Shown here: piece by piece, positions 33,032-52,520 of the stretch
How positions within the stretch are numbered: the stretch's first letter is position 1
Layout of the letters: each line of letters starts with the position of its first letter
Source of the DNA: Flavobacterium cupriresistens
GTDB taxonomy: Bacteria > Bacteroidota > Bacteroidia > Flavobacteriales > Flavobacteriaceae
Length of the DNA stretch: 64,000 nucleotides
Direction: 5' to 3'
NCBI RefSeq assembly: GCF_020911925.1
Contig: NZ_CP087134.1
Coordinates: 4,092,001 to 4,156,000 of the forward strand
The notes under the pieces: model-generated
What the model was told of the DNA's origin: nothing
Seen by the model: only the letters and a program-made list of their open reading frames with translations
Databases searched by the model: none
Made by a program: the position numbers and the translations under genes

Positions 33032-33208
33032 ATCATTCTAAAAAGAAATTAACCTGACAATTATCAGTAATTTAACATTCTGCAAAAACTGATAAATAAC
33101 CTGTTAGGTACAATTAATTTTAACACATCAAAGTACAAACAATAAAAGTAAGCCGTAAATACACACCATACAACGAGCTCCGGTTCGTGATTTTTGAGGC
33201 TTTTTTTA

Positions 33209-33216
33209 TACCTTTG
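33209..33216 (+). promoter_or_regulatory. TAnnTTTG promoter element of mnmE
   Basis: TACCTTTG is a perfect -7 element ending 4 bases before the ATG at 33221. Transcription would begin at or very near the start codon. It rules out the in-frame TTG at 33194 as the start. Confidence 0.7.
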
Positions 33217-33220
33217 CAGC

Positions 33221-34621
33221 ATGATAAATCAAGATTCTATAGTTGCATTGGCTACTCCTTCAGGAGCCGGAGCAATTGCCATAATTCGAATTTCAGGTTC
33301 CGATGCTATAACGATCGGAGACAGCGTCTTTAAATCCATCAAAAACAAGGATTTAACCAAACAAAAAACACATACCTTACATTTAGGTCATATCGTCGAC
33401 GAGTCGAAAACGCTTGACGAAGTTTTGGTTTCTGTTTTTAAAGGACCGAACTCGTATACCGGTGAAAACACTATAGAAATCTCCTGTCACGGGTCTACTT
33501 ATATTCAGCAGCAAATTATTCAGTTGTTATTAAGAAAAGGCTGCAGAATGGCCGATGCGGGTGAATTTACCCTTAGAGCCTTCTTAAACGGAAAACTGGA
33601 TTTATCACAAGCAGAAGCTGTTGCCGATTTGATATCATCCGATAATGAAGCTTCACACCAAATTGCCATGCAACAAATGCGTGGTGGTTTTAGCAATGAA
33701 ATAGCCAAATTGCGTGAGGAACTATTAAACTTCGCCTCCCTAATTGAATTGGAATTGGATTTTGCAGAAGAAGATGTAGAATTTGCAGACAGAAGTCAGT
33801 TTCATGAATTATTGAACCGAATTGAGTTTGTTTTAAAACGTTTAATTGATTCATTCGCTGTTGGAAATGTCATCAAAAATGGGATTCCGGTAGCGATCGT
33901 TGGAGAACCAAACGTTGGAAAGTCGACTTTACTAAATGCCTTATTAAACGAAGAACGTGCCATTGTTTCTGACATTGCCGGAACTACACGTGATACCATC
34001 GAAGACGAATTAGTAATTGGCGGAATCGGATTTAGATTCATAGACACAGCGGGAATCCGCGAGACAAAGGATGTTGTGGAAAGCATCGGAATCAAAAAAA
34101 CCTTTGAAAAAATTGAGCAGGCACAGGTTGTGATTTATTTGTTTGATGGTTTAAAGTTTCAGGTTTCAAGTTCGGAGTTTGTTTCGGAAATTGAACAAAT
34201 CAAGAATAAATATCCTTTAAAACCATTGCTGATTGTTGTTAATAAAAAAGATATTTTATCTACTGATGAGGTTTCAAACATCACCGATAAACTCGAAAAC
34301 TTAAACGCCAAACTTTTACTAATCTCCGCAAAAGAGAAAATTGGTGTGGATGATTTAAAAGATGAATTGCTTTCTTTTGTAAATACCGGAGCGCTTAGAA
34401 ATAACGAAACAATCGTAACCAATACAAGACATTACGATTCTTTACTAAAAGCATTAGATGAAATACAAAAAGTGAAATTTGGTCTTGAAACGAATCTTTC
34501 GAGTGACCTTATGGCACTTGACATTCGCGAAGCTTTGTACCAATTTGGACTTATTACCGGTCAGGTTTCTAATGATGAGTTGTTGGGGAATATTTTTGCT
34601 AATTTTTGTATTGGGAAGTAG
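33221..34621 (+). CDS. mnmE: tRNA modification GTPase MnmE
   Basis: A 466-residue protein of normal family length starting MINQDSIVALATPSGAGAIA. The N-terminal tetrahydrofolate-binding domain is followed by the helical domain and the inserted GTPase domain: G1 GEPNVGKSTLLNALL, G2 TTRDT, G3 DTAG, G4 NKKD. It ends with the conserved FCIGK, whose Cys is catalytic. With MnmG it makes the 5-carboxymethylaminomethyl modification of wobble uridine in tRNA. The last bases of the gene are the apparent integration site of the island to its right, and a diverged copy of its last 78 codons lies at 37829-38062. The current 3' end may therefore have been supplied by an incoming element. Confidence 0.97.
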   Translation: MINQDSIVALATPSGAGAIAIIRISGSDAITIGDSVFKSIKNKDLTKQKTHTLHLGHIVDESKTLDEVLVSVFKGPNSYTGENTIEISCHGSTYIQQQIIQLLLRKGCRMADAGEFTLRAFLNGKLDLSQAEAVADLISSDNEASHQIAMQQMRGGFSNEIAKLREELLNFASLIELELDFAEEDVEFADRSQFHELLNRIEFVLKRLIDSFAVGNVIKNGIPVAIVGEPNVGKSTLLNALLNEERAIVSDIAGTTRDTIEDELVIGGIGFRFIDTAGIRETKDVVESIGIKKTFEKIEQAQVVIYLFDGLKFQVSSSEFVSEIEQIKNKYPLKPLLIVVNKKDILSTDEVSNITDKLENLNAKLLLISAKEKIGVDDLKDELLSFVNTGALRNNETIVTNTRHYDSLLKALDEIQKVKFGLETNLSSDLMALDIREALYQFGLITGQVSNDELLGNIFANFCIGK

Positions 34622-34642
34622 GTTTCACAAAACATCACAAAA
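34603..34642 (+). other. attachment-site-like repeat L (end of mnmE)
   Basis: These 40 bases span the last codons of mnmE and the start of the downstream DNA. They match 45731-45770 at 35 of 40 positions, with an exact 17-mer CACAAAACATCACAAAA (34626-34642 and 45754-45770). The first 18 bases also match the end of the mnmE fragment at 38044. Confidence 0.75.
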
Positions 34643-34651
34643 TAAAACAAA

Positions 34652-37457: not shown

Positions 37458-37828
37458 ATCAATTATATAGAAATGAATGGAACGACGTGGAAGGTATTCT
37501 GCGTCGCTTTTTTTCATACTGCAAATCTTAATTTAAAATATACTGCTTGCAGAATTATGGATTTTGAACAACAATGACCTTTAAGTATACATTTTTTAAT
37601 GGATTTAAAATTCTAAAGATAAAAGTTATTATCAGATGCGACAGACTCCTTACTCTTTCTTCCATTTCAATAGAATTTAATTACTTTTCTAATTTTACTC
37701 ATGTCTGTTATTTTGTTTGCCATAATCCGTATATTTTTAACGAATGTATGGTTCTAACAACATGAAAAAATGAATAGTTTTTAATCGTTAATTAACCACA
37801 AAACTTGGTGGTCAATTTGCTCCGGAAC
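37458..37828. other. intergenic region between oxidase and mnmE fragment
   Basis: About 370 AT-rich bases. A weak hairpin (CGACG at 37482 region with CGTCG before a T run near 37500-37515) may end oxidase transcription. Nothing else is recognised; small ORFs here have no coding character. Confidence 0.4.
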
Positions 37829-38062
37829 GGGGCACTTAGAAATAATGAAACAATCGTTACCAATACAAGACATTACGATTCTTTACTAAAAGCATTAGAT
37901 GAAATACAAAAAGTAAAATTTGGTCTCGAAACGAATCTTTCGAGCGATCTTATGACGCTTGATATCCGAGAAGCTTTGTACCAATTTGGACTTATTACGG
38001 ATCAGGTATCTAATGATGAGTTGTTGGGGAATATTTTTGCTAATTTTTGTATCGGGAAATAA
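37829..38062 (+). pseudogene. mnmE: 3' fragment of mnmE (last 78 codons)
   Basis: The frame encodes GALRNNETIVTNTRHYDSLL and continues to the canonical FCIGK end, colinear with mnmE 34388-34621. Differences from mnmE are scattered and mainly at third positions, with A-to-T (MALDI to MTLDI) and G-to-D among the few replacements, so it derives from a related but not identical allele. There is no start codon. It is what remains when an element integrates inside the gene end and restores the gene with its own copy. Attachment-like repeat C lies at 38044-38083. Confidence 0.9.
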
Positions 38063-38326
38063 CTAGCGATTTCAAAACATCATATTTCTACATTTCAAGT
38101 GTCGTAAACAAAGGGATTTCCATATACTTATAGATAACTTTGTTTACCCTTATTTAATATAATCGAGTTACTAATCGTACTACTAATTTTTAAAATCAGT
38201 AATTTTTTATGAAGTTTATGATACCATAGTCTGTAAAGTCACTACTACATTGAATAGTTACTTTCCTACTGTGTTTTACCTAATGAACATAAGGAAATCG
38301 TAAAGTATCACAGACAATAAGTAATA

Positions 38327-38668
38327 ATGAGTCATCTAACAATCAAAAGAAATTGTGTCGTCTGTAATATTGAATTCATAGCAAAAAGTAATAAAGGAAT
38401 CTACTGTTCAATATTATGTTTTAAGAGAAACTGGAGGAAGTTTCAAAAGGAAAATACGATTGTAATTCCTAAAACAAAACCAATTGTATCTAAAGAGAGT
38501 TTAAATTCTAAACATTACTTATCAATCAAAGAAGCAGTTATATTTTTTGAAATTTCAGAGGTTACTTTACGAAGATTAATAAGAATTAATAATTTGAAAT
38601 ATGTGTGTCTGAAAAATAGATTTTTCTTTTTGAAATCAGATTTAGTAAAAGTAATTTTCAAAGATTAA
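38327..38668 (+). CDS. Zn-finger and helix-turn-helix protein (excisionase-like)
   Basis: A 113-residue protein. Cys10-x2-Cys13 and Cys27-x3-Cys31 could bind zinc. A second part (about 58-108, HYLSIKEAVIFFEISEVTLR then RLIRINNLKYV) has the MerR/excisionase-type HTH in which SIKEAA-like and VTLRRLI helices are typical. Such proteins are frequent next to integrases in Bacteroidota mobile elements. It lies 265 bases from repeat C, the position expected for an excision factor. Function is inferred from fold and place only. Confidence 0.65.
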   Translation: MSHLTIKRNCVVCNIEFIAKSNKGIYCSILCFKRNWRKFQKENTIVIPKTKPIVSKESLNSKHYLSIKEAVIFFEISEVTLRRLIRINNLKYVCLKNRFFFLKSDLVKVIFKD

Positions 38669-39026
38669 TTCTTATTAAACATCATTATTTCTAAAGTAAT
38701 TATAGTGTTTTCCCATGTGGAATATACTTTTTCTATTTCATTAATAAAGAAAGTTTTGTTGTCAATACTTATATCTTTAATTTTCGCTTTTTCAGCAATC
38801 TCATAGAACTTTGGAGAAGATTCTTCTCTACTAGATAAAAATACAATAATTGTTAAACACGGTCTTCTTTTAGAAAATTCAATTTTTCATTTATATAAAT
38901 ATTATCTCCAAAACCAGATCTTTTACATAACTTATCATAAGTAATGTTTTTTCTTTGATGTGCTAAATCAATAAGAATTTCTCTTATATTTCTTTCGTAA
39001 TTTATTTTCAAATTGTGAGTTGACAT
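38665..39026 (-). pseudogene. unrecognised ~120-aa gene with one-base frameshift
   Basis: From the ATG at 39026 the frame gives MSTHNLKINYERNIREILID and continues to NIYINEK near 38886. It then runs out of frame, but the adjacent frame continues sensibly as IEFSKRRPCLTIIVFLSSRE through FYEIAEKAKIKDISIDNKT to a stop at 38665. Adding one A to the A5 run at the junction restores a single ORF. I do not recognise the family. It overlaps the end of the HTH gene by 4 bases in convergent orientation. This is either a real mutation or a homopolymer sequencing error. Confidence 0.6.
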
Positions 39027-39075
39027 AGATATATCATTAATTTTTTTTAAAATAATTTTAAGATTGTCTATGTAG

Positions 39076-39650
39076 TTAAATTGAACCTAATATATCTAAT
39101 TGAATTTCATCACTATCATCCTTCTTCTTATTCTCCTTCTCTTTATCTTTTTTATCAATATATTCAACAAGTTCAAAAATATCAGTAGGTATCTTTTCTC
39201 TTTTAAACTCAGCGGTTCTTATAATTTTTTGTTTTTTGTAATATATCCCGATTTCACTTCATATACTTCTAAAAATTCGTTAGCAAATAACTCTTTAGTC
39301 CAATTCGTGATACTTCCATCACTTACATTCATCCTTTTCGAGTTTGTTTCTCTTTTTGAATAATATCCATTTTCAGTTTTACTCATTGTATTATATTCTC
39401 CCCACAATAATTTTGAACCTGTTTTTAAATTAGGATTATTATATATTTCAAAAGGAACTATACATTCTCTACTATCTTTTTTACCATTAATTATTGGAAG
39501 TTCAATACCACTTAATTTATCGGTTAAGTAGTGAATTCTTTTATCTTCAGTATCCTTTACCAGATATCCTTTATTAAGTAAACTCTTTCTACAAAGTCCT
39601 ACTATATTTGGATGTAGTGAAAATAACTTTCCAATATCCACATTAGTCAT
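39076..39650 (-). pseudogene. winged-helix/HTH replication-type protein with frameshift near its end
   Basis: The first 143 codons (39219-39650) encode two DNA-binding-like parts: IGKLFSLHPNIVGLCRKSLL at the N-terminus and KLLWGEYNTMSKTENGYYSK then MNVSDGSITNWTKELFANEF, which resembles the HTH domain of plasmid and phage replication-initiation or replisome proteins. The frame stops after SGYITKNKKL, but the next frame continues RTAEFKREKIPTDIFELVEY and on to DEIQLDILGSI with a stop at 39076. One extra A in the A6 run near 39228 joins them into about 190 residues. Function not established. Confidence 0.62.
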
Positions 39651-39689
39651 TGTATTAAATCCTCTTTTTTAATTAAAAGTATATTCAAT

Positions 39690-40075
39690 ATGCCTAAACA
39701 ACAAGCAATAAACTTCATTACAAAAGAAAATGGTTATAAATTCAAATCAAAAGATATGAAATAAGGAATTATAACTTATACAAAAAAAATTCAATTCATA
39801 CTTTTGATGTTAATGTCAAATTTAAAGGAGAAAACCTCAGTATATTTAGTTGGAATGATATTCTAAATAGAGCTCAATATATGGTAAATGACATTAGCAA
39901 TGACATTAGCAATGATAATAGTTATAATATTGATGAAACAAAAACTAATGATTATTTAGGGACATTTACATCAAAATCTATTGAAAAAGGATTTGAAATA
40001 ATTATTTATAGAACACAACCAAATTTAAACAAAGGAATGATTGCATTTACTCTACATAAAACTATAAAGAAATAA
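39690..40075 (+). pseudogene. unrecognised ~128-aa gene with one-base frameshift
   Basis: The ATG at 39690 opens MPKQQAINFITKENGYKFKS then stops after KDMK at about 39763. The neighbouring frame carries on as RNYNLYKKNSIHTFDVNVKF through TKTNDYLGTFTSKSIEKGFE to the stop at 40075. Adding one A to AAA at 39761-39763 restores the ORF. It contains an in-frame 12-base duplication (NDIS NDIS). A terminator follows directly. No known family. Confidence 0.55.
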
Positions 40076-40110
40076 AAAACATCGAAAATAAATCATATTT
40101 TACGCTTTAT

Positions 40111-40145
40111 AAAAGGTCTTAATTTCAAAAGAGGACCTTTTTTTA
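40111..40145 (+). terminator. rho-independent terminator before the NTPase operon
   Basis: AAAGGTC and GACCTTT form the stem around an A/T-rich loop, followed by TTTTTTT. It isolates the NTPase operon from the upstream small gene. Confidence 0.75.
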
Positions 40146-40271
40146 TGTTAACTATCTTAGATAAAAAATAGTTAATATAGTAAAAATATGATCTCATAAC
40201 TTTAAAAAAATCAAATAGATAAAATTAATTTAAACATCTTTTATTTACTATTTTAGCAAATAAAATACAGT

Positions 40272-43200
40272 ATGCAGATACCTCTACAAAGTTTATTTGT
40301 CTCAAAAAAAACAGAAATTAAAAAAAACAATACTTTAATTAGTTCACTTGCTCCAAAGATTTTAACAAAAAAGGAAGATGTTGAAAAGATTCAACCTTAT
40401 TTGGATAAACTAAATGAAACCATAGATACAAAAGGCATTAACAATATTGCTTTGACTGGTGGCTATGGTTCGGGGAAAAGTACAATAATTGGAACGTTTA
40501 AAGAGTTAAATCCTCAATACAAATTCTTAAATATATCATTAGCTTCTTTTAATAAGAAAAAAAGTGATGATACATTAACTCCATCTGAAAAAAAGGCACA
40601 GAAAGAAGAATTAGAAAGGTTGTTAGAAGTTAGTATTTTGCAACAAATATTTTATCATGTTAAACCTGAGGAAATCCCTGAATCTCGTTTTAAAAGAATT
40701 ATCAATATTCCAGATTGGAAGATATGGAGTATTTCAATTGGTTTTATTCTGTGGGTTACAAGTTCAACTTTACTGTTGAAGTACAGTTATTTAGATAAAA
40801 TCAATCCAAATAATTGGAATAGTAAAGATAGCTTTGATTGGTTTGCTTTAATCATATTCTTAATAGCATTCATCGGCTTAGGTTTATTTTCTAAATTGAT
40901 TATCAAATTATTTAGTAACTCTAAAATTAATAAAGTAAACATAAAAGGAGAATTAGAGTTAGGAGACAATGTAAATAAATCCGTATTTAATGAACATTTA
41001 GAAGAAATCTTATACTTCTTTGAACGAACGAAATATGATGTTGTACTAATAGAAGATTTAGATAGATTTGATAGTACGGATATATTCACAAAACTTAGAG
41101 AAATCAATATACTCTTAAATAATTCAAAACTCATAAACAGAGAGATCAATTTTGTTTATGCTGTTGGAGATGATTTATTTGATGATAAAAAGGAAAGAGT
41201 AAAATTCTTTGAATACATAATTCCTGTTATTCCGTTTATTAATTCATCAAATGCTGATGAACAATTAAGAACATTGATTAAAGAAGCTGGATTAGATGAA
41301 AATATATTTACCAAAGAATTTATTTCTGATGTGACTACATTCATTGATGATATTGATATGCGTTTACTAACAAATATTTTCCACGAATTTGTCATCTATA
41401 GAAAAACGCTAAAACCTGAATTCATTAAAAAAAATGATGAGTTATTTGCTATGATAACTTATAAGAATATTGATCCGAAAGACTTCACTAAACTCAATAA
41501 AAAAGAGGGAAAACTATTTGAATTAATCAACAATAAGAGCAATTATATAAAGAAATTTATCAGTAAAATAGATACCGAAATTACACTAAAAAATTATCAA
41601 ATAAAAGATATAGAAGGACATATAATTACTGATATTGAAGAATTAAAAAGTATATATCTAAAAGCCATACTATTAACTTTGCCTAATTATAGAACAATAG
41701 ATATAAATGATGTATTAGAAAATTTTGATACAATTATTAGAACTCAAACATTATTGAACACAGAATATAATAGCTACCATAATAGAGAAAACAAACACAA
41801 TCACACTTTTGATTTTTCTAAAATTGAAAATCAAGTTAATTCTGATTACTGTTATGAAGAAAGAGTTGAACTGATAGAATCTAAACATAATAATAAAGTT
41901 GATTTACTAAAAATCGAAATTGAAAAGTTGAAATCAAAGAAAATCAAAATTAAAAATTGGAATTTAAAACAAATATTCAATGAAGTTGATATTGACGAAT
42001 ACCTAAACAATTTTTCAAATAATTCTTTATTGAGAAATTTTATCTTAAATGGTTATATCAACGAAAACTATAATGATTATATCTCTTTATTCCACGAAGT
42101 ATCAATAACAAAAGAAGATTACACCTTTGAAAGAAATGTTAAGGGCGGATATCCAACAGATTTTAATTATAAACTAAGTGCTAAAATTGAAAATTTAGTA
42201 GAGAAAATAGACGAAAGATATTTTGAGAGAGAAACAATATTAAACTTTGATTTATTAGATTATTTAGGAAACAATTATAGTAAATACTCAGATAAATATG
42301 ATTCTATTATTCGTTTGTTAAGTAACGAAAAAGAAAAGTCAATACAATTTATAGATGAATACATTATAAACGAAGAGAGACCACTTGAAATTTTTATTGA
42401 AAAATTGGTAGAAAACTGGACTACATTTTGGAATTATATATTTTTAGAATGTAATTATACTGACGATAAGTTAAATAAATATTTAGAGCTTATTATACGA
42501 TTTTCAAAAACAGAAAGAATTTTGTATAATAACGATCCTATTTACCTAACACATCAAATAGAAGAAAATTCCGAGTTTCTATCGTTAATCAAAAATGGTG
42601 AAGAATTAGATTATTTTAATAAAATAACAAAACTTCTAAAAGAATTGGGTGTTGAATTTGAGAAGTTGGACAATCCTAATGATGAAACGAGAAAACTGTT
42701 TAATTATGTGTATAACAATAATCATTATAGAATAAACCAAAATAATCTTCTACAGATGTTCTTATTATTTGGAAAGGAAAATGCAGAAGAAGAATTCAAT
42801 CACTCAAATTATTCTACAATTTTAAAATCAGATTGTATACCACTTATTGACTATATTAATTCTAAAATTACTACTTATGTTGATGATGTATATTTAAAAC
42901 TAGAAGATAATAAATTTGAAGATCAAAGTAGTTTGACTAAACTGCTAAATGCTAAGAATCTAAGTGGTAAATCTAAAATAAAAATAATTCAAAAAGTTGA
43001 AACTAAAATATCTGAATTAAAGAATATCACCGAATTAGAAATAAAAACACAACTACTGATAAACAATAAATTAATTCCTAAATGGAATAACGTAATTGAT
43101 TATTATACAGCATCTGAAAATACAATAAATGAAAATCTAATTAAGTTTTTGGAGTTTGAAGATGTTAATGAAGAATTATCAAATGAAGCATTAGACGAAT

Positions 43201-43919
43201 CAAATAAAATTTTTGAAAAAAGTATGTTACTCTGTAATGAAATTTCGTATGAAATCTATAAAAAATTAATTAGTAGTAGTCGTTACAGATACAACAAATT
43301 AGAATTTGAGAATTTGGATGAAGATAAAGTAGTTAACTTAGTTAACAGAATTCTTAATACAACTAAATCAAATTACGATTTATTAAGGGAACATTTTCCA
43401 AATAATCATATAACATTAATCGAGAGAGATTATAATAAATTCATTGAAAAAGTGGACTATTTTGAAACAGATGTAGATGATATTTTGATGATACTTCAAT
43501 CCGAAAATATTACTGTTGACAATAGATTTAAGTACATTCCTAAATTGAATGAACAAACAATTATTGAGGATGAAAATATTGCAAAGAAAGTTGGAGAAAT
43601 TATCATTAGTAAATCTACAAAAATTGCATTTGAATTCAGTACAATTGAAAACATCATAAAAAGTTTAGATTCTGCTGAAAACAGAATTAAATTGATAATT
43701 TTATATTTTACTGAACTTAGTAATGAAAATATTATTTCGTTGGTAAAAGGTATTGGATATTATTATAGTGAATTATTTGTAAAAAAGCACAAACCAATAT
43801 TCAATGATAATGTTTTTAATAGAGAATTATTAACTAAATTGAAATCAAAAGGTTTAATAAATAGTTTTGGAATTTACACAAAAGATGATACTAAAATAAG
43901 AGCTATTGCTAATTACTAA
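40272..43919 (+). CDS. YobI-like membrane P-loop NTPase
   Basis: A 1215-residue protein. The N-terminal third is a P-loop NTPase of the YobI/KAP-like type: Walker A GGYGSGKST (63-71), two membrane segments inserted in the domain (about 152-170 and 190-208), Walker B VVLIEDLDRF (257-266) and a FVYAVGDDLF block (294-303). The remaining 850 residues are helical, very rich in Asn, Lys, Glu and Ile, with no motif I recognise. The domain presumably faces the cytoplasm, tethered to the inner membrane. Such NTPases are scattered among bacterial genomes, often in accessory regions. The stop is 10 bases before the next gene, so the two are co-transcribed. Biological role unknown; phage defence is my inference from context. 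Confidence 0.8.
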   Translation: MQIPLQSLFVSKKTEIKKNNTLISSLAPKILTKKEDVEKIQPYLDKLNETIDTKGINNIALTGGYGSGKSTIIGTFKELNPQYKFLNISLASFNKKKSDDTLTPSEKKAQKEELERLLEVSILQQIFYHVKPEEIPESRFKRIINIPDWKIWSISIGFILWVTSSTLLLKYSYLDKINPNNWNSKDSFDWFALIIFLIAFIGLGLFSKLIIKLFSNSKINKVNIKGELELGDNVNKSVFNEHLEEILYFFERTKYDVVLIEDLDRFDSTDIFTKLREINILLNNSKLINREINFVYAVGDDLFDDKKERVKFFEYIIPVIPFINSSNADEQLRTLIKEAGLDENIFTKEFISDVTTFIDDIDMRLLTNIFHEFVIYRKTLKPEFIKKNDELFAMITYKNIDPKDFTKLNKKEGKLFELINNKSNYIKKFISKIDTEITLKNYQIKDIEGHIITDIEELKSIYLKAILLTLPNYRTIDINDVLENFDTIIRTQTLLNTEYNSYHNRENKHNHTFDFSKIENQVNSDYCYEERVELIESKHNNKVDLLKIEIEKLKSKKIKIKNWNLKQIFNEVDIDEYLNNFSNNSLLRNFILNGYINENYNDYISLFHEVSITKEDYTFERNVKGGYPTDFNYKLSAKIENLVEKIDERYFERETILNFDLLDYLGNNYSKYSDKYDSIIRLLSNEKEKSIQFIDEYIINEERPLEIFIEKLVENWTTFWNYIFLECNYTDDKLNKYLELIIRFSKTERILYNNDPIYLTHQIEENSEFLSLIKNGEELDYFNKITKLLKELGVEFEKLDNPNDETRKLFNYVYNNNHYRINQNNLLQMFLLFGKENAEEEFNHSNYSTILKSDCIPLIDYINSKITTYVDDVYLKLEDNKFEDQSSLTKLLNAKNLSGKSKIKIIQKVETKISELKNITELEIKTQLLINNKLIPKWNNVIDYYTASENTINENLIKFLEFEDVNEELSNEALDESNKIFEKSMLLCNEISYEIYKKLISSSRYRYNKLEFENLDEDKVVNLVNRILNTTKSNYDLLREHFPNNHITLIERDYNKFIEKVDYFETDVDDILMILQSENITVDNRFKYIPKLNEQTIIEDENIAKKVGEIIISKSTKIAFEFSTIENIIKSLDSAENRIKLIILYFTELSNENIISLVKGIGYYYSELFVKKHKPIFNDNVFNRELLTKLKSKGLINSFGIYTKDDTKIRAIANY

Positions 43920-43929
43920 ATAAATTTCA

Positions 43930-45651
43930 ATGAAATTCACAAATACATTACGCCTTGAATTTGAACATGTTTATCCTGAGGAGAAACAGATTGAAGTTAT
44001 TGAATATCTAAAATTAGTTACAAAAGAAACTCTTTTAAGTATAATTGGTTTCGCAAATACATACCCACAACCTAATTTTGATAATTTTGCTTCTAATTTA
44101 GATATTAGAAGAGATACTATTAATCGCGTAATTCATTATTGTCATAAAAATAATATTAAAGGTAAGCCTCAATTAGTATCAAGAGAGTCGAGTTTAAAAT
44201 TAGCTGAGATAATATTTTCAAATAAAGAAGTATTAATCGATGACAATAATAATCCAAAAAATATTGATTCAGATGAAATTAATTTGTTTAAATCGTTTTT
44301 AGTAATTAATAAAGAAGTAAATAGCAAACAAAAATTAACAACATCAGAAAACGAAGAAAATCGAGAATCACTTGCTCAAATGATGATTGCTATGTCATTC
44401 TCTACCTCTGATTTAGGAGTTTTTAAAGATAGTACATTTGAATTTGGTAAATTAGTGTATTGTGCTATAGAGAGATTTGAAATATTGATAGAATTCCTTA
44501 ATTCTGATTCTGATTATCAATATTTAACAGATGATGTTTGTTCCTACTTTAAAGTAAAATCTATTGATAAATTAAGAAAGCACGTTAAATATTTATTTTC
44601 TCAATTACTGATATTAAAAACAAAAAATAGTTATAAATTTAATGTTGATGATGATGATGAATCTAAATTATTTTTAGACACTTTAATTTCAAATGAAATT
44701 GATATTGATGATGATTTTACAGTTTTAAAGAATTATCCTCTTTATAAAATAGATGATGAAATATACTCTGTAATTGATCACTTTTTTGTTGTAGATAAAT
44801 TTTATAAAAGTGTTCGATTTATTTTAAAAGAATCATTTAATAAGAATCATGGTTTATCGAATAAGGATAGAACGTTTTTTGAGTTTTTCAATACAAAATT
44901 TTCAGAGGAATTTTTGATGAAAACCATTTTAGATAAAGTATTTAACAGACCTCACTATTTTAAAAAATATCAGAATATAAATAAGCCTTATGAACCAGAT
45001 TATTATCTTAGAGACGGTAAAACTATTTTTATTTTTGAAAACAAAGATGTTCTGATAAGAAAAGACATAAAGAGTTCGGGGGATATTGATAAAATATTAA
45101 ATATTTTTAAAGATAAATTCTTTGAAAATAATGGAAAACCTATTGGTATTGGACAGTTAATAAATTCTATTTTGCAAATAGTTGAAAATAATTTTGATTA
45201 TGATAATTATGTAAACACTAAAAAGAATTTTACAATATATCCTATTTTATTAGTTAATGATAGAATATTGGAAATTCCAGGAGTTAATTATATTTTAAAT
45301 CAATGGTATTTAAAATCAGTTAAAGAGAAACTAAAAGAGAAGTATAATCATAATTTCACTAAAAACCTAACAATCATTGATATAGATACAATTGTTTTTG
45401 GTTCAAATTATTTTACTAAGACCAATAATAATTTTAAAAATTTTATTGAAAATCATCAAAAAGAGATGAGTATAGTACTAAAACCTGATGGTAGAACTTT
45501 AGAAGAAGTTGAAGAATCAATTAATAGAAATCTGATGAAACAATTTTCTCCTATTAGCTTTAGATTCCCTATAGATGAATTTTCTCAAAGTTTATTTATT
45601 GAAAAATTCAAAGAAATAATTACAGAGGATAACGAAGTTGAATCAACATAA
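43930..45651 (+). CDS. putative PD-(D/E)xK nuclease partner of the NTPase
   Basis: A 573-residue protein that I do not recognise as a whole. Residues 355-372 read EPDYYLRDGKTIFIFENK. This gives Asp357 followed 13 residues later by Glu370-x-Lys372 on a hydrophobic strand, the layout of a PD-(D/E)xK nuclease centre. Glu326/327 upstream and Gln409 downstream (GIGQLINSIL) could be further site residues. The N-terminal part (about 1-80, DNFASNLDIRRDTINRVIHY) looks HTH-like. It follows the NTPase gene by 10 bases, has the same extreme AT bias, and ends 80 bases before repeat R. A nuclease effector controlled by the membrane NTPase is a reasonable model but not shown. Confidence 0.65.
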   Translation: MKFTNTLRLEFEHVYPEEKQIEVIEYLKLVTKETLLSIIGFANTYPQPNFDNFASNLDIRRDTINRVIHYCHKNNIKGKPQLVSRESSLKLAEIIFSNKEVLIDDNNNPKNIDSDEINLFKSFLVINKEVNSKQKLTTSENEENRESLAQMMIAMSFSTSDLGVFKDSTFEFGKLVYCAIERFEILIEFLNSDSDYQYLTDDVCSYFKVKSIDKLRKHVKYLFSQLLILKTKNSYKFNVDDDDESKLFLDTLISNEIDIDDDFTVLKNYPLYKIDDEIYSVIDHFFVVDKFYKSVRFILKESFNKNHGLSNKDRTFFEFFNTKFSEEFLMKTILDKVFNRPHYFKKYQNINKPYEPDYYLRDGKTIFIFENKDVLIRKDIKSSGDIDKILNIFKDKFFENNGKPIGIGQLINSILQIVENNFDYDNYVNTKKNFTIYPILLVNDRILEIPGVNYILNQWYLKSVKEKLKEKYNHNFTKNLTIIDIDTIVFGSNYFTKTNNNFKNFIENHQKEMSIVLKPDGRTLEEVEESINRNLMKQFSPISFRFPIDEFSQSLFIEKFKEIITEDNEVEST

Positions 45652-45721
45652 AAAATTAATAAAATAAGCGTTTATTTTACTAAACATGTTACTACTATTA
45701 AAATAACATACTAAATATGCG

Positions 45722-45812
45722 GTGGAACACTTTCTGTATCGGAAAATAGGTTCCACAAAACATCACAAAACAACAATGGCTAAAACACTACAATAAGGCA
45801 TTTTATGTAATA
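45722..45812. other. attachment-site-like repeat R
   Basis: 45731-45770 matches the end of mnmE and its flank (34603-34642) at 35 of 40 positions. The similarity continues, more weakly, into a diverged copy of the mnmE terminator (CTAAAACACTACAATAAGGC at 45780-45799). GTGGAAC (45722-45728) and GTTCCAC (45750-45756) form a perfect inverted repeat around the core, as recombinase-binding arms often do. The polyketide cluster begins at 45813. Confidence 0.7.
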
Positions 45813-46502
45813 TCATCTAGAGAAGCGATCATCTATTTTCTTATTAAAAGTCCACTCCAATATTTTATGCTGATTTTTTCGAGTCCGAAAAGCAATGAAA
45901 GATTTTTTCGAAATGAACTGAAAGTAAATATTGTATATCATTAGATAAGAAATTGATTTTCCCGGTGCTTCACCATATGAATGACCAGGCCAAAACTGGG
46001 AGTGCTCAGGCAGATAATTTTTCAAGAATTGAACGGAATCATATAGAGATGCCGCACCATCTTCAGAACAAACTCCAACACCTTCAATAAAAACAGTATC
46101 TCCAGAAAACACATGATTATCAATTAAATAACAGACACTGCCTGAAGTATGCCCAGGAGTAAGAATTGGAGTTATTTCGATAGTCCCTATTTTAAAGCTT
46201 TTCAAGTGAGAAACCGATTGCAATTTAGAATATGTTAATCGAAAAGTAATTGCATCTATATCGGAGCTCCACACAGAAACATTTTTTTCTTTAGAAAATT
46301 TTCCTGCCAGATCTATATGATCTAAGTGGCCATGAGTAAGCAATACACCCTTTAATAAAATTCCATTTTCTTCTATATAATTAGTGATCAGCTCGTAATC
46401 CCAAGCCGGATCAATCAAAACACCTTCGTATTGATTATGTACCAGATAGCATTGATTCTTAAAAACACCATTAGTAACCTCAAAAAGTTGCACATAAATC
46501 AT
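45813..46502 (-). CDS. metallo-beta-lactamase-fold hydrolase of the PKS cluster (PksB/BaeB-like)
   Basis: A 229-residue glyoxalase II-like protein. The metal motif THGHLDHIDL (H-x-H-x-D-H) lies at about 56-65, with further ligands in PGHTSGSVCYLI, FSGDTVF and WPGHSYG. Homologues (PksB, BaeB) are standard in trans-AT polyketide clusters and are thought to hydrolyse thioesters. The last 35 residues are basic and unlike the core fold. Its start overlaps the stop of the PPTase gene (ATGA), so it is the last gene of the operon, next to the island boundary. Confidence 0.85.
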   Translation of the reverse strand: MIYVQLFEVTNGVFKNQCYLVHNQYEGVLIDPAWDYELITNYIEENGILLKGVLLTHGHLDHIDLAGKFSKEKNVSVWSSDIDAITFRLTYSKLQSVSHLKSFKIGTIEITPILTPGHTSGSVCYLIDNHVFSGDTVFIEGVGVCSEDGAASLYDSVQFLKNYLPEHSQFWPGHSYGEAPGKSISYLMIYNIYFQFISKKSFIAFRTRKNQHKILEWTFNKKIDDRFSR

Positions 46503-47242
46503 CAGGACTGTAAATTTAGATGCGTTAAATGTTTAGCAAAATTAGTTAAATCTATATCGGTACGTTTGGGACAAGTAATGGAGACAATATAAGAGTCCAG
46601 AACTATAGAAAATGATTTGTATTGCCTAAAATTCTTAAAACTTGCACTGTATAATCCATTTTTGTAATCAAGGGAATCTAATTCCAAATAGTTGAAATCA
46701 ATCATCATTCCTGTCTTTAAGATTTTAGACAGGCTTTCTTTTACAGTCCAAAGCAATGTATAGGCTGAAGCTTTATCATTCAGATACGAATTTGTTAAAG
46801 TTATTTCTTGCTGAGTAAACATATTGATCATAGAATCAACTTTTTCCGGATTAATTTTTTCAATATCCACCCCTATAGGATGAGCTTCCGGGTAAGCTAT
46901 GGAAATACCAATAGCATCACAGTGCGTAATAGATACCTGAAAACCAGAACAAGACAGTTGCTCTATGACCGGGAATTGAAAAACACCGAAACCTACTTTA
47001 AAAGAACTCATAACGGTCTTTGTCGGAATAATTTTGCCTAAAGCACTCTTCGCACTAATGCGACCTAACAAATAACTAGATTTTCGTCTATTGAATTTTA
47101 GAGCATTTAAATAGGTAATCTCATCCGGATGTAAAACTTCTAAATATCCATTTAAATCGGTTAATTCTTTTTTTACAATGGTATATCCCGCTATATGTTC
47201 CGAGTTTTCTCTTACCAATCTTATAATACCTTCATATAACAT
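46502..47242 (-). CDS. Sfp-type 4'-phosphopantetheinyl transferase
   Basis: A 246-residue protein with both family motifs: IGVDIEKINPEKVDSM (about 125-140, Mg-binding Asp and Glu) and LLWTVKESLSKILKTG (about 171-187, the WxxKES motif). It attaches phosphopantetheine from CoA to carrier-protein serines and would activate the ACPs of this PKS cluster. Its start overlaps the acyl hydrolase gene by 11 bases and its end overlaps the MBL gene. Confidence 0.92.
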   Translation of the reverse strand: MLYEGIIRLVRENSEHIAGYTIVKKELTDLNGYLEVLHPDEITYLNALKFNRRKSSYLLGRISAKSALGKIIPTKTVMSSFKVGFGVFQFPVIEQLSCSGFQVSITHCDAIGISIAYPEAHPIGVDIEKINPEKVDSMINMFTQQEITLTNSYLNDKASAYTLLWTVKESLSKILKTGMMIDFNYLELDSLDYKNGLYSASFKNFRQYKSFSIVLDSYIVSITCPKRTDIDLTNFAKHLTHLNLQS

Positions 47243-48203
47243 AGGAAGAGTGATTAGAAATTAAACTTTTTACTTTTTCTAATTGCTTAAGCTCATTTCC
47301 AAAAGGGGATAAAATAGGCTGTATGCTGGACTCAGATGTTTTTAGTATGGAATATTTAGTAAAAGTAGCACTAGTTCCCGAAGGTCCCAGGTCGATATAG
47401 AAACACGGTCCGAGTTGTTCCAAAAAGTCAATTGTTTTACTATGGCTGGAATAAGAACTTACCACTTGACTATAATACTCGGCATCAATTTCTTTTAAAA
47501 GATCTGATGTCACGCCAGACAAATAATGTGTCTTAGGTGGAACCAAATCAATCCCTTGTTGCATATAATACGAAAAATCATGTAAACCTTCCTTAAGGAG
47601 AGGAGAATGAAAAGGAACAGTTACCGCAATACGTTTGTGTATTATCTCTTCTTCCTTTAAGATTTTTTGATATTGATCCAAATTTGCTGTTGTCCCGGAG
47701 ACCGTATAACTTCCCTTAAAATTATCTATGGCCAGGTACAAGTTGTATTGTTCATATATTTTAAGTTGATGATGTGTCTCTGCGTTTATAACAGTAAGCA
47801 TACCTCCTTCCAGATTACTCCTTGTTAAAGATTTGGCCTGTTCCATAGCAGCTTTTATAGCTGTTGATACAGACCAAATACCACTGGCGACACCAGCAGC
47901 AAACTCACCAAGACTTTGGCCGAAAACATAATCCGGAAAAATATTGTAAGACTTCATTACCTCTATCATAGCAATCTCAATTGCCACGATAGCAGGATGG
48001 GTGATTAGCAGCTCATCAAAATCTGAGTCATCTTTACCATATAGTTCATGCACAAGAGATCTATTCAAATACTTCTGAAAAATCAGATCACTTTCCTCCA
48101 TGCTTGATCTAAAAACAGCATGGTTCATGAATAGACTTTTTCCCATATTACGATACTGACTACCCTGGCCAGAAAATAAAAAGACAACTTTATACTTTTT
48201 CAT
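47232..48203 (-). CDS. AT-like acyl hydrolase of trans-AT PKS (PksD/PedC-like)
   Basis: A 323-residue protein with the acyltransferase fold: FSGQGSQYRNMG at 10-21, nucleophile Ser97 in FGQSLGEFAAG and the PFHSPLL block. Two features separate it from malonyl transferases: GHSxGE has become GQSLGE, and the conserved Arg that binds the malonyl carboxylate is absent (QAKSL where the malonyl-type AT of this cluster has KRGAL). Both point to an editing acyl hydrolase that clears stalled acyl units from ACPs. The length equals that of PksD-type proteins. Alternative: an AT for a non-carboxylated unit. Confidence 0.82.
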   Translation of the reverse strand: MKKYKVVFLFSGQGSQYRNMGKSLFMNHAVFRSSMEESDLIFQKYLNRSLVHELYGKDDSDFDELLITHPAIVAIEIAMIEVMKSYNIFPDYVFGQSLGEFAAGVASGIWSVSTAIKAAMEQAKSLTRSNLEGGMLTVINAETHHQLKIYEQYNLYLAIDNFKGSYTVSGTTANLDQYQKILKEEEIIHKRIAVTVPFHSPLLKEGLHDFSYYMQQGIDLVPPKTHYLSGVTSDLLKEIDAEYYSQVVSSYSSHSKTIDFLEQLGPCFYIDLGPSGTSATFTKYSILKTSESSIQPILSPFGNELKQLEKVKSLISNHSSYVI

Positions 48204-48226
48204 ATCTTGTGTAAGATTACTAATGT

Positions 48227-48973
48227 TTACCTCTCGAACAAAGCTTTTATATTTTCTTTAACTTGTGGTTGATGAAAAGTTATTTTATGCATTTCTAATT
48301 CTTGCTCAAATATATCCTTTAAACTCTTCTTGATTTTTGATGTCATATGTTTTTTTAGCGTCACTAATGAAAGTCTTGGCTTCTCAGCTAATTTCTTTGC
48401 TAATGCTATTGCCTCTGTACGAACTTCTTTTTTTGGAACTACGTGTAAAGAGACTCCTCGTTCCTGCAATTCTCCTCCCCTATAACTTTCGGCTGTAAAA
48501 AGCATTTCGCTGCCTAAAGAGGAACCAAAACGCAGTGGCACCATGTAAGTTGCTCCCATACCCGGAGTGAATCCGTATTTCATGAAATTTGCAGTATATA
48601 TATTTTCCTTTCCTAAAATTTGAAAATCTGCATAACATCCGAAAACAAGTCCTCCTCCAATTGCGTGTCCTTGCATGGCAGCAATTACAGGAATCTCGCA
48701 ATCAATTGGTGCTGTAAAAAAATCTAATTCCGTAAATTTCAACTTTCCGTCATATATTTGTTGTAACTCGTCCGGGGTTCCTCCGCAAGAAAAATAGCTG
48801 TCGTAACCTATTAGAATTACTACTTTATACGCTTTATTTTGGTTTACAATTGCAAAAGCCTGTTTTAACCCTTGCATTAGTTCTTTAGAAAATGTATTTC
48901 TTGACACTTTATCTTGCATCGTAATTTGTACAATTTCTTCTGTGATTTCTGTAATGTTTACTACCTCTCCCAT
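48227..48973 (-). CDS. enoyl-CoA hydratase homologue ECH2 (PksI-like decarboxylase)
   Basis: A 248-residue crotonase-fold protein. The oxyanion region is FSCGGTPDEL, followed by AAMQGHAIGGGLVFGCYADF and FMKYGFTPGMGATYMVPLRF, the block typical of PksI-type enzymes. In beta-branching, ECH2 decarboxylates the 3-methylglutaconyl-ACP intermediate to leave a methyl branch with a double bond. Its start overlaps ECH1 by 13 bases. Confidence 0.9.
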   Translation of the reverse strand: MGEVVNITEITEEIVQITMQDKVSRNTFSKELMQGLKQAFAIVNQNKAYKVVILIGYDSYFSCGGTPDELQQIYDGKLKFTELDFFTAPIDCEIPVIAAMQGHAIGGGLVFGCYADFQILGKENIYTANFMKYGFTPGMGATYMVPLRFGSSLGSEMLFTAESYRGGELQERGVSLHVVPKKEVRTEAIALAKKLAEKPRLSLVTLKKHMTSKIKKSLKDIFEQELEMHKITFHQPQVKENIKALFER

Positions 48974-49749
48974 GGATATTCTCCTTTCTCAATAAAGTTC
49001 TTTATATTCTTCTGTACCGTTTCAGACTCCATTAGTCTCTGTAATTTATTAACTGCTATTGTTTTGGTATCCTCCTTTATAATCCAGAGTTTTGCCGTAT
49101 AAGATTTAATTTCCTGAATTGTATTCGTTTCTAATCGACTAAGCCTTAGTATATTTTTCCTTAGCAGATTATCAATTTCATCTGTCACTTCATCTACCAG
49201 ACCTATTTCATAAGCTCGTTCTGCCGATATTCCAAGTGTAATTAATGTGAGCCATTTGGCTTTCTGCGGACCAGTTCTTTGCATCAAAAAAGGCATTACA
49301 CAAGCGGGTAACAATCCAAATAAGGCTTCAGATAGACCAAAAGTTGCCTGACTATTTGCCAGTACTATATCACTAGCTGCAACTAATCCTATTCCTCCTG
49401 CATTTACTTTCCCTTCAACTTTTGCTATTACCACCTTATCAATTTCGCTAATCGCTTTCAAAACATTGTAATATTGATCCGGTTGTTGATTCATTAAAGC
49501 TTCCTTCTGCTGATTTGCCACCGCTTCAAAATCCATTCCTGTACAGAATTGATTTTCATTACCGGATAATACTATGATTTTTACTTTTGTGTTTTGTTTA
49601 ACCTCTTTCAAAACCTCCAAAAGTTCATTTGCCATCAAGGCATTAATACTATTATGCTGTTCGGGTCTATTGAGCTGAATATGGAGAACCTCTCGTTGTT
49701 GCCTTACCAGAATGGTACTGTAATTATTATTGACCTCTATCATACCCAT
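48961..49749 (-). CDS. enoyl-CoA hydratase homologue ECH1 (PksH-like dehydratase)
   Basis: A 262-residue crotonase-fold protein with HSINALMANELLEVLKEV, FCTGMDFEAVANQQ and KVEGKVNAGGIGLVAASDIV. ECH1 enzymes dehydrate HMG-ACP to 3-methylglutaconyl-ACP, the step before ECH2. The start could be 49749 or the second Met at 49743, which makes an ATGA overlap with the HMG synthase stop. Confidence 0.9.
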   Translation of the reverse strand: MGMIEVNNNYSTILVRQQREVLHIQLNRPEQHNSINALMANELLEVLKEVKQNTKVKIIVLSGNENQFCTGMDFEAVANQQKEALMNQQPDQYYNVLKAISEIDKVVIAKVEGKVNAGGIGLVAASDIVLANSQATFGLSEALFGLLPACVMPFLMQRTGPQKAKWLTLITLGISAERAYEIGLVDEVTDEIDNLLRKNILRLSRLETNTIQEIKSYTAKLWIIKEDTKTIAVNKLQRLMESETVQKNIKNFIEKGEYPWER

Positions 49750-50987
49750 TCGTAAATTCTGTGATAATTTTTAATTTCTGAAAAGATCAGTTTCTTTTTT
49801 CCTTTTACTTTACTGAAGGGTTCCGGATATAATGTGGTGTCTATTTTGTAATCTCTGGTTCCGAATTTGATTTGTGAGTTAACAGCAAAAGTACTTTCGT
49901 ATTCTTCCATAGATAATACCACTCGTTCGTCTAAATGTTCTTCTATAGCCAAAGGTGAAATTAACATTTGACTTTGAGGATGTATCACTCCACTAAAAAA
50001 CTCGGAACAGCATCCTGATCCATATGAAAATATGCCAACTCTTTTTGGGGTTTCAAAATTTCCTTTTTCAATCATGCTTACTAATGCCAAATAAGTTGTT
50101 GCTCCCATAATGTTTCCAACTCTCTGACAATATTCTAAAGAAGGAGCTACACGCCCTTGGAAATCTTCTTCGATCTGATCCGGTTTTGCCTTTTTGAATT
50201 TTCGCATATTGGTTCGGTGTGCACCTTTTACCATTCCTCCAAATGGTGTATGAAAGACTAAGTATTGGAAACTATCCTGATAATCTGTATCATCAACTCT
50301 CTTTTGGTATTCTTTAAAGCTGTTTTCGCAGCAATCCAGATAAGATAATAAAGATAAATCTGAGTCTCCCGCTTCTTTGTCTGCAACGGGTCTGCAAGTA
50401 TCCATAACCTCATAACCGTAATAACCGCTGGCTCCTTTGTCTATTTCAAATATTTTTGGTTGATCACTAATCAGCATGGCTACAGCTCCGGATCCGGATG
50501 AAGGCTCTACAAAAGACATTTCCATAGCTCCTCCTTCTACTGTACTCATCCTCATAATATCTGTAGCGATGACTAAAACTTTTCTACCCACAGCAGTCCC
50601 CGAAAGGATAAAATTAATAGCCATCTGAAGACCTGCCGTTCCGGAATAACAGGCATTTTTGAGTTCGAACAACCTGCAATTTCGACTCAATTTTAAATAA
50701 TCATGTATGTACGTACTCATCGACTTTCCAAAATCAATACCTGATTCTGAACAAGTGATCAACATATCTATGCTTTCTATTTCTTCATCAGTCAATGCAT
50801 CCAATAAGGGTTTTGCTGCATTAACCCCATTAGAGATCGGATCTTCATAAGGCATTGGCACTGTTTTCTCTTTCATTAACAAATTCTCAAATCGCTCGGT
50901 GTTTAATTGTCGATGTTTTGCTAATTCAGCAACGTCTATGACTGCTGATCCGCAATATATATTTATAGCTTCTATTCCTGCTCTCAT
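49740..50987 (-). CDS. HMG-CoA synthase-like protein (PksG-like, beta-branching)
   Basis: A 415-residue thiolase-fold enzyme. The nucleophile is Cys113 in LKNACYSGTAGLQMA. Other blocks are VFHTPFGGMVKGAHR (catalytic His) and GIFSYGSGCCSEFFSG. It condenses acetyl from the donor ACP onto the beta-keto group of the PKS-bound chain. In the HCS cassette it acts between the decarboxylating KS and ECH1. Length matches PksG-type proteins. Confidence 0.94.
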   Translation of the reverse strand: MRAGIEAINIYCGSAVIDVAELAKHRQLNTERFENLLMKEKTVPMPYEDPISNGVNAAKPLLDALTDEEIESIDMLITCSESGIDFGKSMSTYIHDYLKLSRNCRLFELKNACYSGTAGLQMAINFILSGTAVGRKVLVIATDIMRMSTVEGGAMEMSFVEPSSGSGAVAMLISDQPKIFEIDKGASGYYGYEVMDTCRPVADKEAGDSDLSLLSYLDCCENSFKEYQKRVDDTDYQDSFQYLVFHTPFGGMVKGAHRTNMRKFKKAKPDQIEEDFQGRVAPSLEYCQRVGNIMGATTYLALVSMIEKGNFETPKRVGIFSYGSGCCSEFFSGVIHPQSQMLISPLAIEEHLDERVVLSMEEYESTFAVNSQIKFGTRDYKIDTTLYPEPFSKVKGKKKLIFSEIKNYHRIYEWV

Positions 50988-51010
50988 ATTTTTTTCTGAT
51001 TCTATTTTGG

Positions 51011-52270
51011 TTATGCTTCTAGAATAATAGCTGTATTGATACCTCCAAAACCAAAACTATTACTTAATGCGTATTGTATTGAATGGGCCTCTCTATAACT
51101 TTGTATCCAGTCCATAGGGTAATCTATCGGTGTTTCTAAATTAAGATTTTCGTGCACAAAATTTCCATTCATTTGTATCAGACTCGCAATAGCTTCTACA
51201 GTTCCTGCTGCTGTGATACCATGACCAATTAGTGATTTTGTGCTGTTTATCGGTTTGTTTCTGAGTTCCAGATTAATCAAAGCTTCAATCTCTGTATGAT
51301 CTCCCAGTTTTGCCCCTGTACCATGCGCATTAATGTAATCAATTTGTTCTGCCAAAATACCTGCTTTTTGCATCGCTTTAGCTATAGCCTTTTGTTCTCC
51401 ATCTACTGAAGGATTCGGGTTTCTATTGGCATCTAGTGTAACTCCATAGCCAGATATCGTTCCAAACACTTTTGCTTTTCTTTGCTGCGCATGCTGCTTT
51501 GATTCTAAAATAATTGCTCCAGCATTTTGTCCGTATACAAATCCTGAATGATTGATATCAAAAGGTTTGTACAGGGGAATTTCCGCTGTCTCTGATGCTA
51601 CTGGCTGCATAGCTCCCAAAGCAGAAAATCCTTGGTATTCATAAACGGATAAATCCATCATAGGAGCAATTACCATAACGACATCATATGCTTGAGTTTC
51701 TATAAGTCTGCAAGCTTGAATGATTCCCATGTTTCCACTGGCACTGGCTGCTCCAACTGTAAATCCTTCTCCTGTAATCTCAAATAATTCTGATGCTACA
51801 CCTATCATATCACTATCCAAAAAATTGAATCCATAGGAAGGTTTCATGAATTGCATTTTATTTTTGTACGTTTCTCTGATATCCTGACAATGCTGCTGTT
51901 GTGTATTGCTGCCTGCTACAACTATAGCTATTTTACTTTTATCTATCGTTGACGGAAGCTTGGCTTGATGCCAAGCTTCCAGAGCACAAAATGTTCCATA
52001 AGCAGTACTTAATGAAATATCCCGTAAACGTTTAACTTTTAGTTTCCAATGCTCCTCAAACTCACTATCTGATATGTTTTTTTTTAGATCAAAATCTTCT
52101 ACTTTCCCATATACGTATTTAAAGGTTCTATCTTCTATAACATACTCCTTTATAGCAAAATTCGATTTTCCGTTTTTTAAAGCCTCTGTAAAAGCGGGAA
52201 TTCCTATTCCTACTGGGGTAACGACTCCCATTCCTGTTACACAAGCTTTATGTATTTGATCTGTACTCAT
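51011..52270 (-). CDS. decarboxylating ketosynthase (PksF-like, KS0)
   Basis: A 419-residue KAS fold. Where condensing KSs have the active-site Cys (TACSSS), this one reads VGAASASGNMG, with Ser in place of Cys; the two His motifs remain (NAHGTGAKLGD and GHGITAAGTVEA). That is the signature of the malonyl-ACP decarboxylase of beta-branching cassettes, which generates acetyl-ACP. I use the ATG at 52270 (MSTDQIHKACVTGMGVVTP), not the upstream TTG at 52300 that would overlap the ACP gene. Confidence 0.91.
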   Translation of the reverse strand: MSTDQIHKACVTGMGVVTPVGIGIPAFTEALKNGKSNFAIKEYVIEDRTFKYVYGKVEDFDLKKNISDSEFEEHWKLKVKRLRDISLSTAYGTFCALEAWHQAKLPSTIDKSKIAIVVAGSNTQQQHCQDIRETYKNKMQFMKPSYGFNFLDSDMIGVASELFEITGEGFTVGAASASGNMGIIQACRLIETQAYDVVMVIAPMMDLSVYEYQGFSALGAMQPVASETAEIPLYKPFDINHSGFVYGQNAGAIILESKQHAQQRKAKVFGTISGYGVTLDANRNPNPSVDGEQKAIAKAMQKAGILAEQIDYINAHGTGAKLGDHTEIEALINLELRNKPINSTKSLIGHGITAAGTVEAIASLIQMNGNFVHENLNLETPIDYPMDWIQSYREAHSIQYALSNSFGFGGINTAIILEA

Positions 52271-52286
52271 AGCAACGCAGGTGTTT

Positions 52287-52520
52287 TTATTTTTCAGCAA
52301 TCAATTCTGCTAATTCATTTATGGTTTGTGCTCCTGCTAATTCTATTCTAGGAATTTCTTTCTCTAATTGTTCTAATGTTAATGCGATTAATTCTGCTCT
52401 ATCGATAGAATTTGCTCCAATATCTGATAGTTTCTCATCATTAGATATTATTTTTCCTTCCAGTTCTGGAATAATCTCAAGTAAATTTTCTCTGATTTGC
52501 TCTATTATTTGATTTTTCAT
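52287..52520 (-). CDS. free-standing donor acyl carrier protein (AcpK-like)
   Basis: A 77-residue ACP. The phosphopantetheine site is Ser38 in SDIGANSIDRAEL; the four-helix pattern is normal. In the HCS cassette it carries malonyl, then acetyl, for delivery to the HMG synthase. It precedes the decarboxylating KS by 16 bases. Confidence 0.93.
   Translation of the reverse strand: MKNQIIEQIRENLLEIIPELEGKIISNDEKLSDIGANSIDRAELIALTLEQLEKEIPRIELAGAQTINELAELIAEK

Follow-up and report, generated by a model that had tools for sequence, protein, structure and literature searches.

A Tmn-family membrane NTPase gene followed by an apparently exchangeable nuclease-type gene: a predicted anti-phage operon on a decayed mnmE island of Flavobacterium cupriresistens

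Two adjacent genes, here called A and B, lie in a 64,000-nucleotide stretch of the Flavobacterium cupriresistens genome (positions 4,092,001 to 4,156,000 of NZ_CP087134.1; the whole stretch is referred to as the window), the host genome being one contig of 5.74 Mb. On a narrow balance of probability, we read them as a predicted two-gene anti-phage operon, carried on a decayed island at the mnmE gene and composed of a Tmn-family nucleoside triphosphatase (NTPase) and an exchangeable PD-(D/E)xK nuclease module. In the mechanism proposed, the product of A would sit at the membrane and detect infection, a change in A driven by nucleoside triphosphate would release, recruit or load B, and B would cut DNA, with the result that the phage would be stopped or the cell killed. 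Where Tmn lacks B, it presumably works by itself or together with some other protein. The two genes and their principal motifs are as follows.

40272..43919, + strand: gene A, complete, 1215 amino acids, membrane NTPase of the Tmn / YobI-ATPase family
40458..40484, + strand: codons of Walker A, GGYGSGKST, gene A residues 63-71
40722..40919, + strand: hydrophobic region with two likely membrane segments, gene A residues 151-216 (Kyte-Doolittle windows above 1.4)
41040..41069, + strand: codons of Walker B, VVLIEDLDRF, gene A residues 257-266
43930..45651, + strand: gene B, complete, 573 amino acids, putative nuclease of PD-(D/E)xK type, undescribed family
44905..45156, + strand: catalytic-type residues of B (E326, P356-D357, E370-x-K372, Q409), invariant in alignments A1 and A5

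Both genes are on the + strand with a gap of 10 nucleotides between them, as an earlier interpretation of this DNA (the sequence-only reading) had placed them. That reading had also called them extremely AT-rich, and they do form the stretch of lowest guanine-plus-cytosine (GC) content in the window: the GC fraction is 0.241 in gene A and 0.232 in gene B, as compared to 0.346 in the whole window, and the 5 lowest of 587 sliding 5.4-kb stretches begin at 39.6-40.2 kb.

By its profile matches gene A is a Tmn-family membrane NTPase, since Pfam and PADLOC both place it there. PF20693 (YobI-ATPase) matches residues 43-415 with an E value of 1.9e-113 and 380 bits (cut-off 27), and the PADLOC Tmn profile PDLC02220 matches residues 12-985 with an E value of 1.7e-71. 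The Walker A and Walker B motifs are retained with small changes across 23 aligned Tmn sequences, the window's own counted, and between them hydropathy analysis places hydrophobic stretches at residues 151-169 and about 185-216 (the 19-residue windows begin at 151 and at 185-198). The sequence-only reading was therefore right about both motifs, about the two membrane segments, and about A being a membrane NTPase of a phage-defense family. It knew of no described system with this pairing, but A itself belongs, by the PADLOC match, to the known Tmn family, and this rules out A as an undescribed NTPase. Anti-phage activity of an Escherichia coli Tmn has been shown experimentally, and the accessible text of that report describes Tmn as an NTPase of the KAP family whose two transmembrane domains are unusual, and calls its mechanism unexplored in 2025 (PMC11846954). 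By analogy, gene A may act against phage as well.

Matches to the gene A family were found in 41 of 398 genomes of the genus and on 635 plasmids, 463 of them from Escherichia; all plasmid matches are below 60% identity and 8 cover 80% of the query. In the phylum sample PF20693 exceeds its cut-off in 4/395 genomes. No Tmn was found in viral contigs using patterns from close relatives, and a near-mode search of E. coli genomes returned no match.

Gene B could not be placed in a family by Pfam, PADLOC or NCBIfam, nor did it match a PDB sequence, and scanning 27 members of its family together with a profile search gave weak, scattered matches or none. The evidence for its nature lies in conserved residues and a structural model. 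Seven columns (E326, P356, D357, E370, K372, Q409 and P438) are invariant in the 26-sequence alignment A1, which includes one fragment; in a second alignment, A5, whose 27 sequences are mostly absent from A1, the first six are invariant and P438 is nearly so. Three of these residues, D357, E370 and K372, had already been singled out at these positions from the sequence. The AlphaFold model of B has a predicted local distance difference test score (pLDDT) of 87.2 and a predicted template modeling score (pTM) of 0.86. In it, E326 lies in a helix (315-337), the P-D pair just before a strand (358-362), E370 and K372 at the end of a strand (365-372) and Q409 in a helix (407-418), and a further strand follows at 435-442. 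An E...PD...ExK...Q motif on such an order of helices and strands is the pattern of PD-(D/E)xK nucleases. Compared by eye with this pattern, the modeled core around the motif fits the PD-(D/E)xK superfamily; the N-terminal 300 or so residues are largely helical. The invariant residues and the confident model together support gene B as a PD-(D/E)xK-type nuclease of an undescribed family, with nuclease activity predicted.

Relatives of B occur in 14/395 genomes of the phylum sample and 18/398 of the genus, both counts including this genome. A contig profile search recovered 29 named loci with the B alignment A3 and none with the B sequence alone; two fragmentary matches in the genus sample (G500 and G644) stand outside the loci compared. 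Eight plasmids, all from Hymenobacter, carry relatives at 23-31% identity. Phage records gave no match to B, and one viral contig (L101) holds a relative.

A second Tmn-B pair was found in Flavobacterium psychrolimnae (locus L072), where hsdR (assigned by Pfam), tmn and B follow one another in that order and about 11 nucleotides separate the tmn stop from the start of B. In neither pair, then, does the tmn gene stand alone, B lying 10 nucleotides behind it in the window and about 11 in F. psychrolimnae. The two pairs do not appear to share a single history. Protein identity between them is 60% for A and 83% for B, and the Tmn genes are not sisters: in a tree printed without support values, the window's gene groups with that of L131 (74%) and the F. 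psychrolimnae gene with that of L136 (76%). L136 holds the closest sampled Tmn relative of the F. psychrolimnae gene, and B is absent from both L131 and L136. The two B copies, on the other hand, are sisters in the B tree with a support of 1.000. Silent divergence (dS) between the same two genomes is 0.46 for B (30/106 four-fold sites) and 1.74 for A (72/135), and the value for B is also below that of each Tmn gene to its own B-less relative (0.72 and 0.83). The ratio of nonsynonymous to silent divergence (dN/dS) is about 0.19 for B and about 0.17 for A, whose dS is near saturation. Along the two pairs, the final 200 nucleotides of A are 71-85% identical; B is 80-94% identical over its first 1.5 kb and 74-77% or less beyond that. 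Nucleotide identity thus rises at the A-B junction and drops toward the end of B. Because silent divergence of B is so far below that of A, B seems to have moved independently of Tmn.

The B-less relatives point the same way. L136 aligns collinearly with L072 over 6.8 kb through hsdR and tmn, to 11 nucleotides past the last tmn codon, and the collinearity resumes after B; judged by this alignment, L136 is a natural empty site lacking B. Homology of the window to L131 ends 7 nucleotides past the tmn stop. We infer that, following the first joining of the two, at least one further gain or exchange placed B, with little else, behind Tmn. Comparison of the two pairs and the two B-less relatives thereby supports B as an optional module that appears to be exchanged between Tmn genes. 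What still speaks for a link between Tmn and B is that B apparently reached a different Tmn gene and there, too, lies 10-11 nucleotides behind it.

Several observations weigh against a dedicated two-gene system. Tmn-B pairing is rare, and only two pairs are known. B was found at 0 of 41 other Tmn loci, 31 of which allow a firm statement (an open frame of at least 1100 amino acids and at least 1 kb of downstream sequence). Two of the 41, L067 and L068, come from the phylum sample; the other 39 come from the genus, in which 40 further genomes have a match and the weakest of these (G512) is left out. A weak phylum match in G025 (locus L069) stands outside the count, and no B was seen there. Conversely, 49 distinct B loci were collected apart from the window's (56 loci minus 7 met twice, with the near-identical pair L018/L056 from two genomes kept), and Tmn accompanies B at just one of them. 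One genome (G526) holds both families about 0.56 Mb apart. Finally, where B loci have room upstream, 29/46 lack a same-strand frame of at least 90 amino acids within 100 nucleotides of B and 17/46 have one (gene neighbors throughout are open frames called mechanically); because of the 29, B can probably act alone. A fixed Tmn-B system is accordingly not borne out by the 41 Tmn loci. The recurrent pairing that the sequence-only reading had looked for exists, among the loci compared, in one further species; the same reading had named as contrary evidence that homologs of the NTPase usually occur without the partner, and this is what the neighborhoods show. A possible split pair in genome G351, in which both genes lie near contig ends, was not counted, as the 375 nucleotides past Tmn encode no B recognizable by eye.

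Where B does have a close upstream gene, the identity of that gene varies. A 1081-amino acid AAA protein precedes it in L019 (= L083) and L084, an HNH enzyme in L079 (with a relative in L025) and an AAA_14/DUF4143 protein matching PADLOC PDC-S01 in L024. In a Ferruginibacter metagenome-assembled genome (L100:5290-10674) the Olokun pair OloA-OloB is followed 20 nucleotides downstream by a B relative. A PADLOC scan covered 90 neighbors of the 19 closer B loci, out of 252 neighbors of 48 loci; among the matches listed (25 of 169 families, without a control set), those near B include type I restriction, Lamassu, Hachiman, type IIG and DISARM. Phage_integrase matches were found in 3 of the 90 neighbors.

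The slot behind Tmn can also hold something other than B. In L133 and L139, a Tmn gene about 60% identical to the window's is followed, overlapping or 17 nucleotides away, by a gene for a protein of 587-608 amino acids, as follows.

L133:1346-3169 and L139:8307-10067: membrane-protein family behind Tmn, 75% identical to each other, unrelated to B

The L139 protein has hydrophobic N-terminal segments; Pfam has no match to either copy, nor does the PDB to the one in L139. A same-strand gene of at least 150 amino acids lies within 150 nucleotides downstream of Tmn in 8 of the 31 informative loci, so that close neighbors alone prove little and the recurrence of the same partner is what counts. Silent divergence between L133 and L139 is 1.07 for Tmn and 0.89 for the partner, a smaller difference than that between A and B, and exchange is therefore not shown for that pair. 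Another Tmn gene is followed after 24 nucleotides by a 294-amino acid gene (L134:8576-9457). As a phospholipase-D-type nuclease, this gene is a lead only: an HxK motif hints at it, the PLDc_2 profile has no match there, and the PDB search gave nothing useful.

How these loci are to be understood depends on whether A and B act together. B may instead be an autonomous, single-gene defense nuclease, one of the many genes of this sort that accumulate in defense islands, that came to lie behind Tmn only because the site offers a promoter or recombines often, and we regard this as a serious possibility, although one that falls short of being probable. The many B loci without a close upstream gene and the variety of upstream genes where there is one (Tmn, 1081-amino acid AAA protein, OloA-OloB, HNH enzyme, AAA_14/DUF4143) are what it would predict. 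It accounts less well for the re-formation of a near-identical junction of 10-11 nucleotides behind two distinct Tmn genes, and the presence of a different partner in the same slot of two other Tmn genes suggests that the slot matters to Tmn. We tentatively entertain a broader scheme, in which the Flavobacterium Tmn would be a fixed sensor with a downstream plug-in slot that is bare or holds a nuclease or a membrane protein, and B would be a portable effector behind several unrelated sensors (Tmn, the 1081-amino acid AAA protein, Olokun, HNH enzymes).

An old Tmn-B pair that was lost in relatives, with a slowly evolving B and no exchange, appears unlikely. The sister relationship of the two B copies would fit such a history, and the empty sites are clean, as deletion would also leave them. 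Against it stands the silent divergence of B (0.46), which is far below that of A (1.74) and also below the values between the two Tmn genes and their respective B-less relatives (0.72 and 0.83); slow evolution of B cannot explain this, because slow change of a protein leaves silent change unlowered.

Relative to systems already described, the operon proposed here combines familiar and unfamiliar parts. Gene A resembles Tmn (TmnA) in its PADLOC match and in its P-loop NTPase, which comes with two hydrophobic segments as in PMC11846954; the difference is that the accessible text of that report treats Tmn as one protein, whereas here a nuclease-type gene follows. The E. coli plasmid Tmn matches listed are about 30% identical over 44% of gene A. 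The profile of the YobI-like P-loop NTPases (PF20693) covers the NTPase part only and includes no nuclease partner. B shares the motif and secondary structure of the PD-(D/E)xK superfamily but, in the libraries used, its sequence matches no described family, and it differs further in its largely helical N-terminal 300 or so residues. Gabija and Lamassu are two-gene defense layouts of a sensor plus a nuclease in which the pairing is, as far as is known, constant; the present arrangement is like them in having an NTPase gene beside a nuclease-type gene and differs in that the pairing is optional and the partner apparently exchangeable. No report of Tmn with a nuclease partner was found among the titles and abstract openings listed in searches of the open-access literature, which leave subscription papers uncovered, and a text search on YobI gave unrelated papers only among the 20 listed of 539 matches. 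The Tmn family is thus already known, Tmn with a separate nuclease-type gene is a variant of it, and B represents an undescribed family.

With the variant and its close B-less relatives, one can ask directly how Tmn acts alone and to what it signals. The B family, for its part, is present in 18/398 genus genomes and has defense genes among its neighbors (seen without a control set), yet it is unmatched in the defense and domain libraries used. If the plug-in slot scheme were true, defense would evolve through the exchange of complete effectors while the sensor in front of them stays the same.

The island that carries A and B is delimited by copies of the mnmE 3' end, and its features are as follows.

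33194..34621, + strand: mnmE (tRNA modification GTPase), complete, 475 amino acids, 86-88% protein identity to mnmE of L084 and L089
34603..34645, + strand: left 43-nucleotide direct repeat, mnmE 3' end plus flank, candidate attachment site; 86% identical to 45731-45773, and the same sequence follows mnmE in L084 and L089
37828..38061, + strand: second, partial copy of the mnmE 3' end, 92% over 234 nucleotides to 34387-34620; Pfam MnmE_helical 1.1e-16; inside an 85-amino acid open reading frame, 37805-38062
38327..38668, + strand: 113-amino acid open reading frame, possibly a shortened island regulator; HTH_17 4.8e-4 (below cut-off); 25-26%, E 1e-6, to a 195-amino acid protein
39219..39650, - strand: shortened copy of an island protein, 143 amino acids; 61.5% over 143 positions to a 284-amino acid open frame in L133; weak winged-helix likeness (MarR 0.0013, below cut-off)
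40111..40141, + strand: hairpin followed by a U run, candidate terminator upstream of A; -9.9 kcal/mol, z -2.06
45731..45773, + strand: right 43-nucleotide direct repeat, candidate attachment site; 93% to the mnmE end plus flank of L084

The left edge of the island, 38063, directly follows the 92% mnmE-end copy, and the 43-nucleotide repeats are 86% identical; the island postulated by the sequence-only reading is thereby confirmed. Within 11 kb the mnmE 3' end occurs three times, in full or in part (34387-34645, 37828-38061 and 45731-45773), and this end is likely to be the insertion site. SGI1 variants are known to insert at the trmE (mnmE) 3' end according to the accessible text of PMC8409611. 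The arrangement looks like successive insertions at one mnmE site, the first bringing a segment with a flavin oxidoreductase gene and the second A and B. B is also found at mnmE in L084 and L089, where the same stretch holds a 380-amino acid recombinase-type gene and a helix-turn-helix-type gene; the 195-amino acid protein that resembles the 38327 frame adjoins the recombinase-type gene in both. With the L084 recombinase as the only recombinase query, the best match in the window has an E value of 0.56 and lies outside the island. Because of the lack of a match to that recombinase and the shortened regulator, the island is probably no longer mobile.

Of the small genes that had been called broken, the one at 39219-39650 is indeed shortened relative to the 284-amino acid frame, but breakage of the 38327 frame is not shown by its weak likeness of 25-26%. 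The terminator said to isolate the two genes has a similarly mixed outcome: the hairpin with its U run is there, but a consensus scan found no terminator-like site upstream of A, and the case for a terminator is only fair.

That A and B serve the island itself, by retention or by exclusion of rivals at mnmE, rather than phage defense is very improbable: the several mnmE-end copies suggest repeated insertion at one site, and two B loci adjoin a recombinase-type gene at mnmE, but a search of 79 B and Tmn loci, none longer than 20 kb, found mnmE in only 2, A and B are intact in a window island that has no match to that recombinase, and the E. coli Tmn has demonstrated anti-phage activity (PMC11846954).

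Some further observations concern the surroundings of the island and of related Tmn genes. The flavin oxidoreductase of the first inserted segment is 631 amino acids long. In genome G401 an mnmE end (L183:14447) lies about 28 kb from a Tmn gene that is one of the two closest to the window's, and in G605 an attachment-like repeat (L186:6951) lies at a similar distance from Tmn, with no match there to the rest of the mnmE end. To the right of the island, a polyketide synthase cluster begins (46502-63998 on the - strand), perhaps of the trans-acyltransferase type, of which five genes were scanned; it includes a phosphopantetheinyl transferase, separate acyltransferases, a protein like hydroxymethylglutaryl-CoA (HMG-CoA) synthase, and ketoreductase (KR), dehydratase (DH), acyl carrier protein (ACP) and thioesterase domains.

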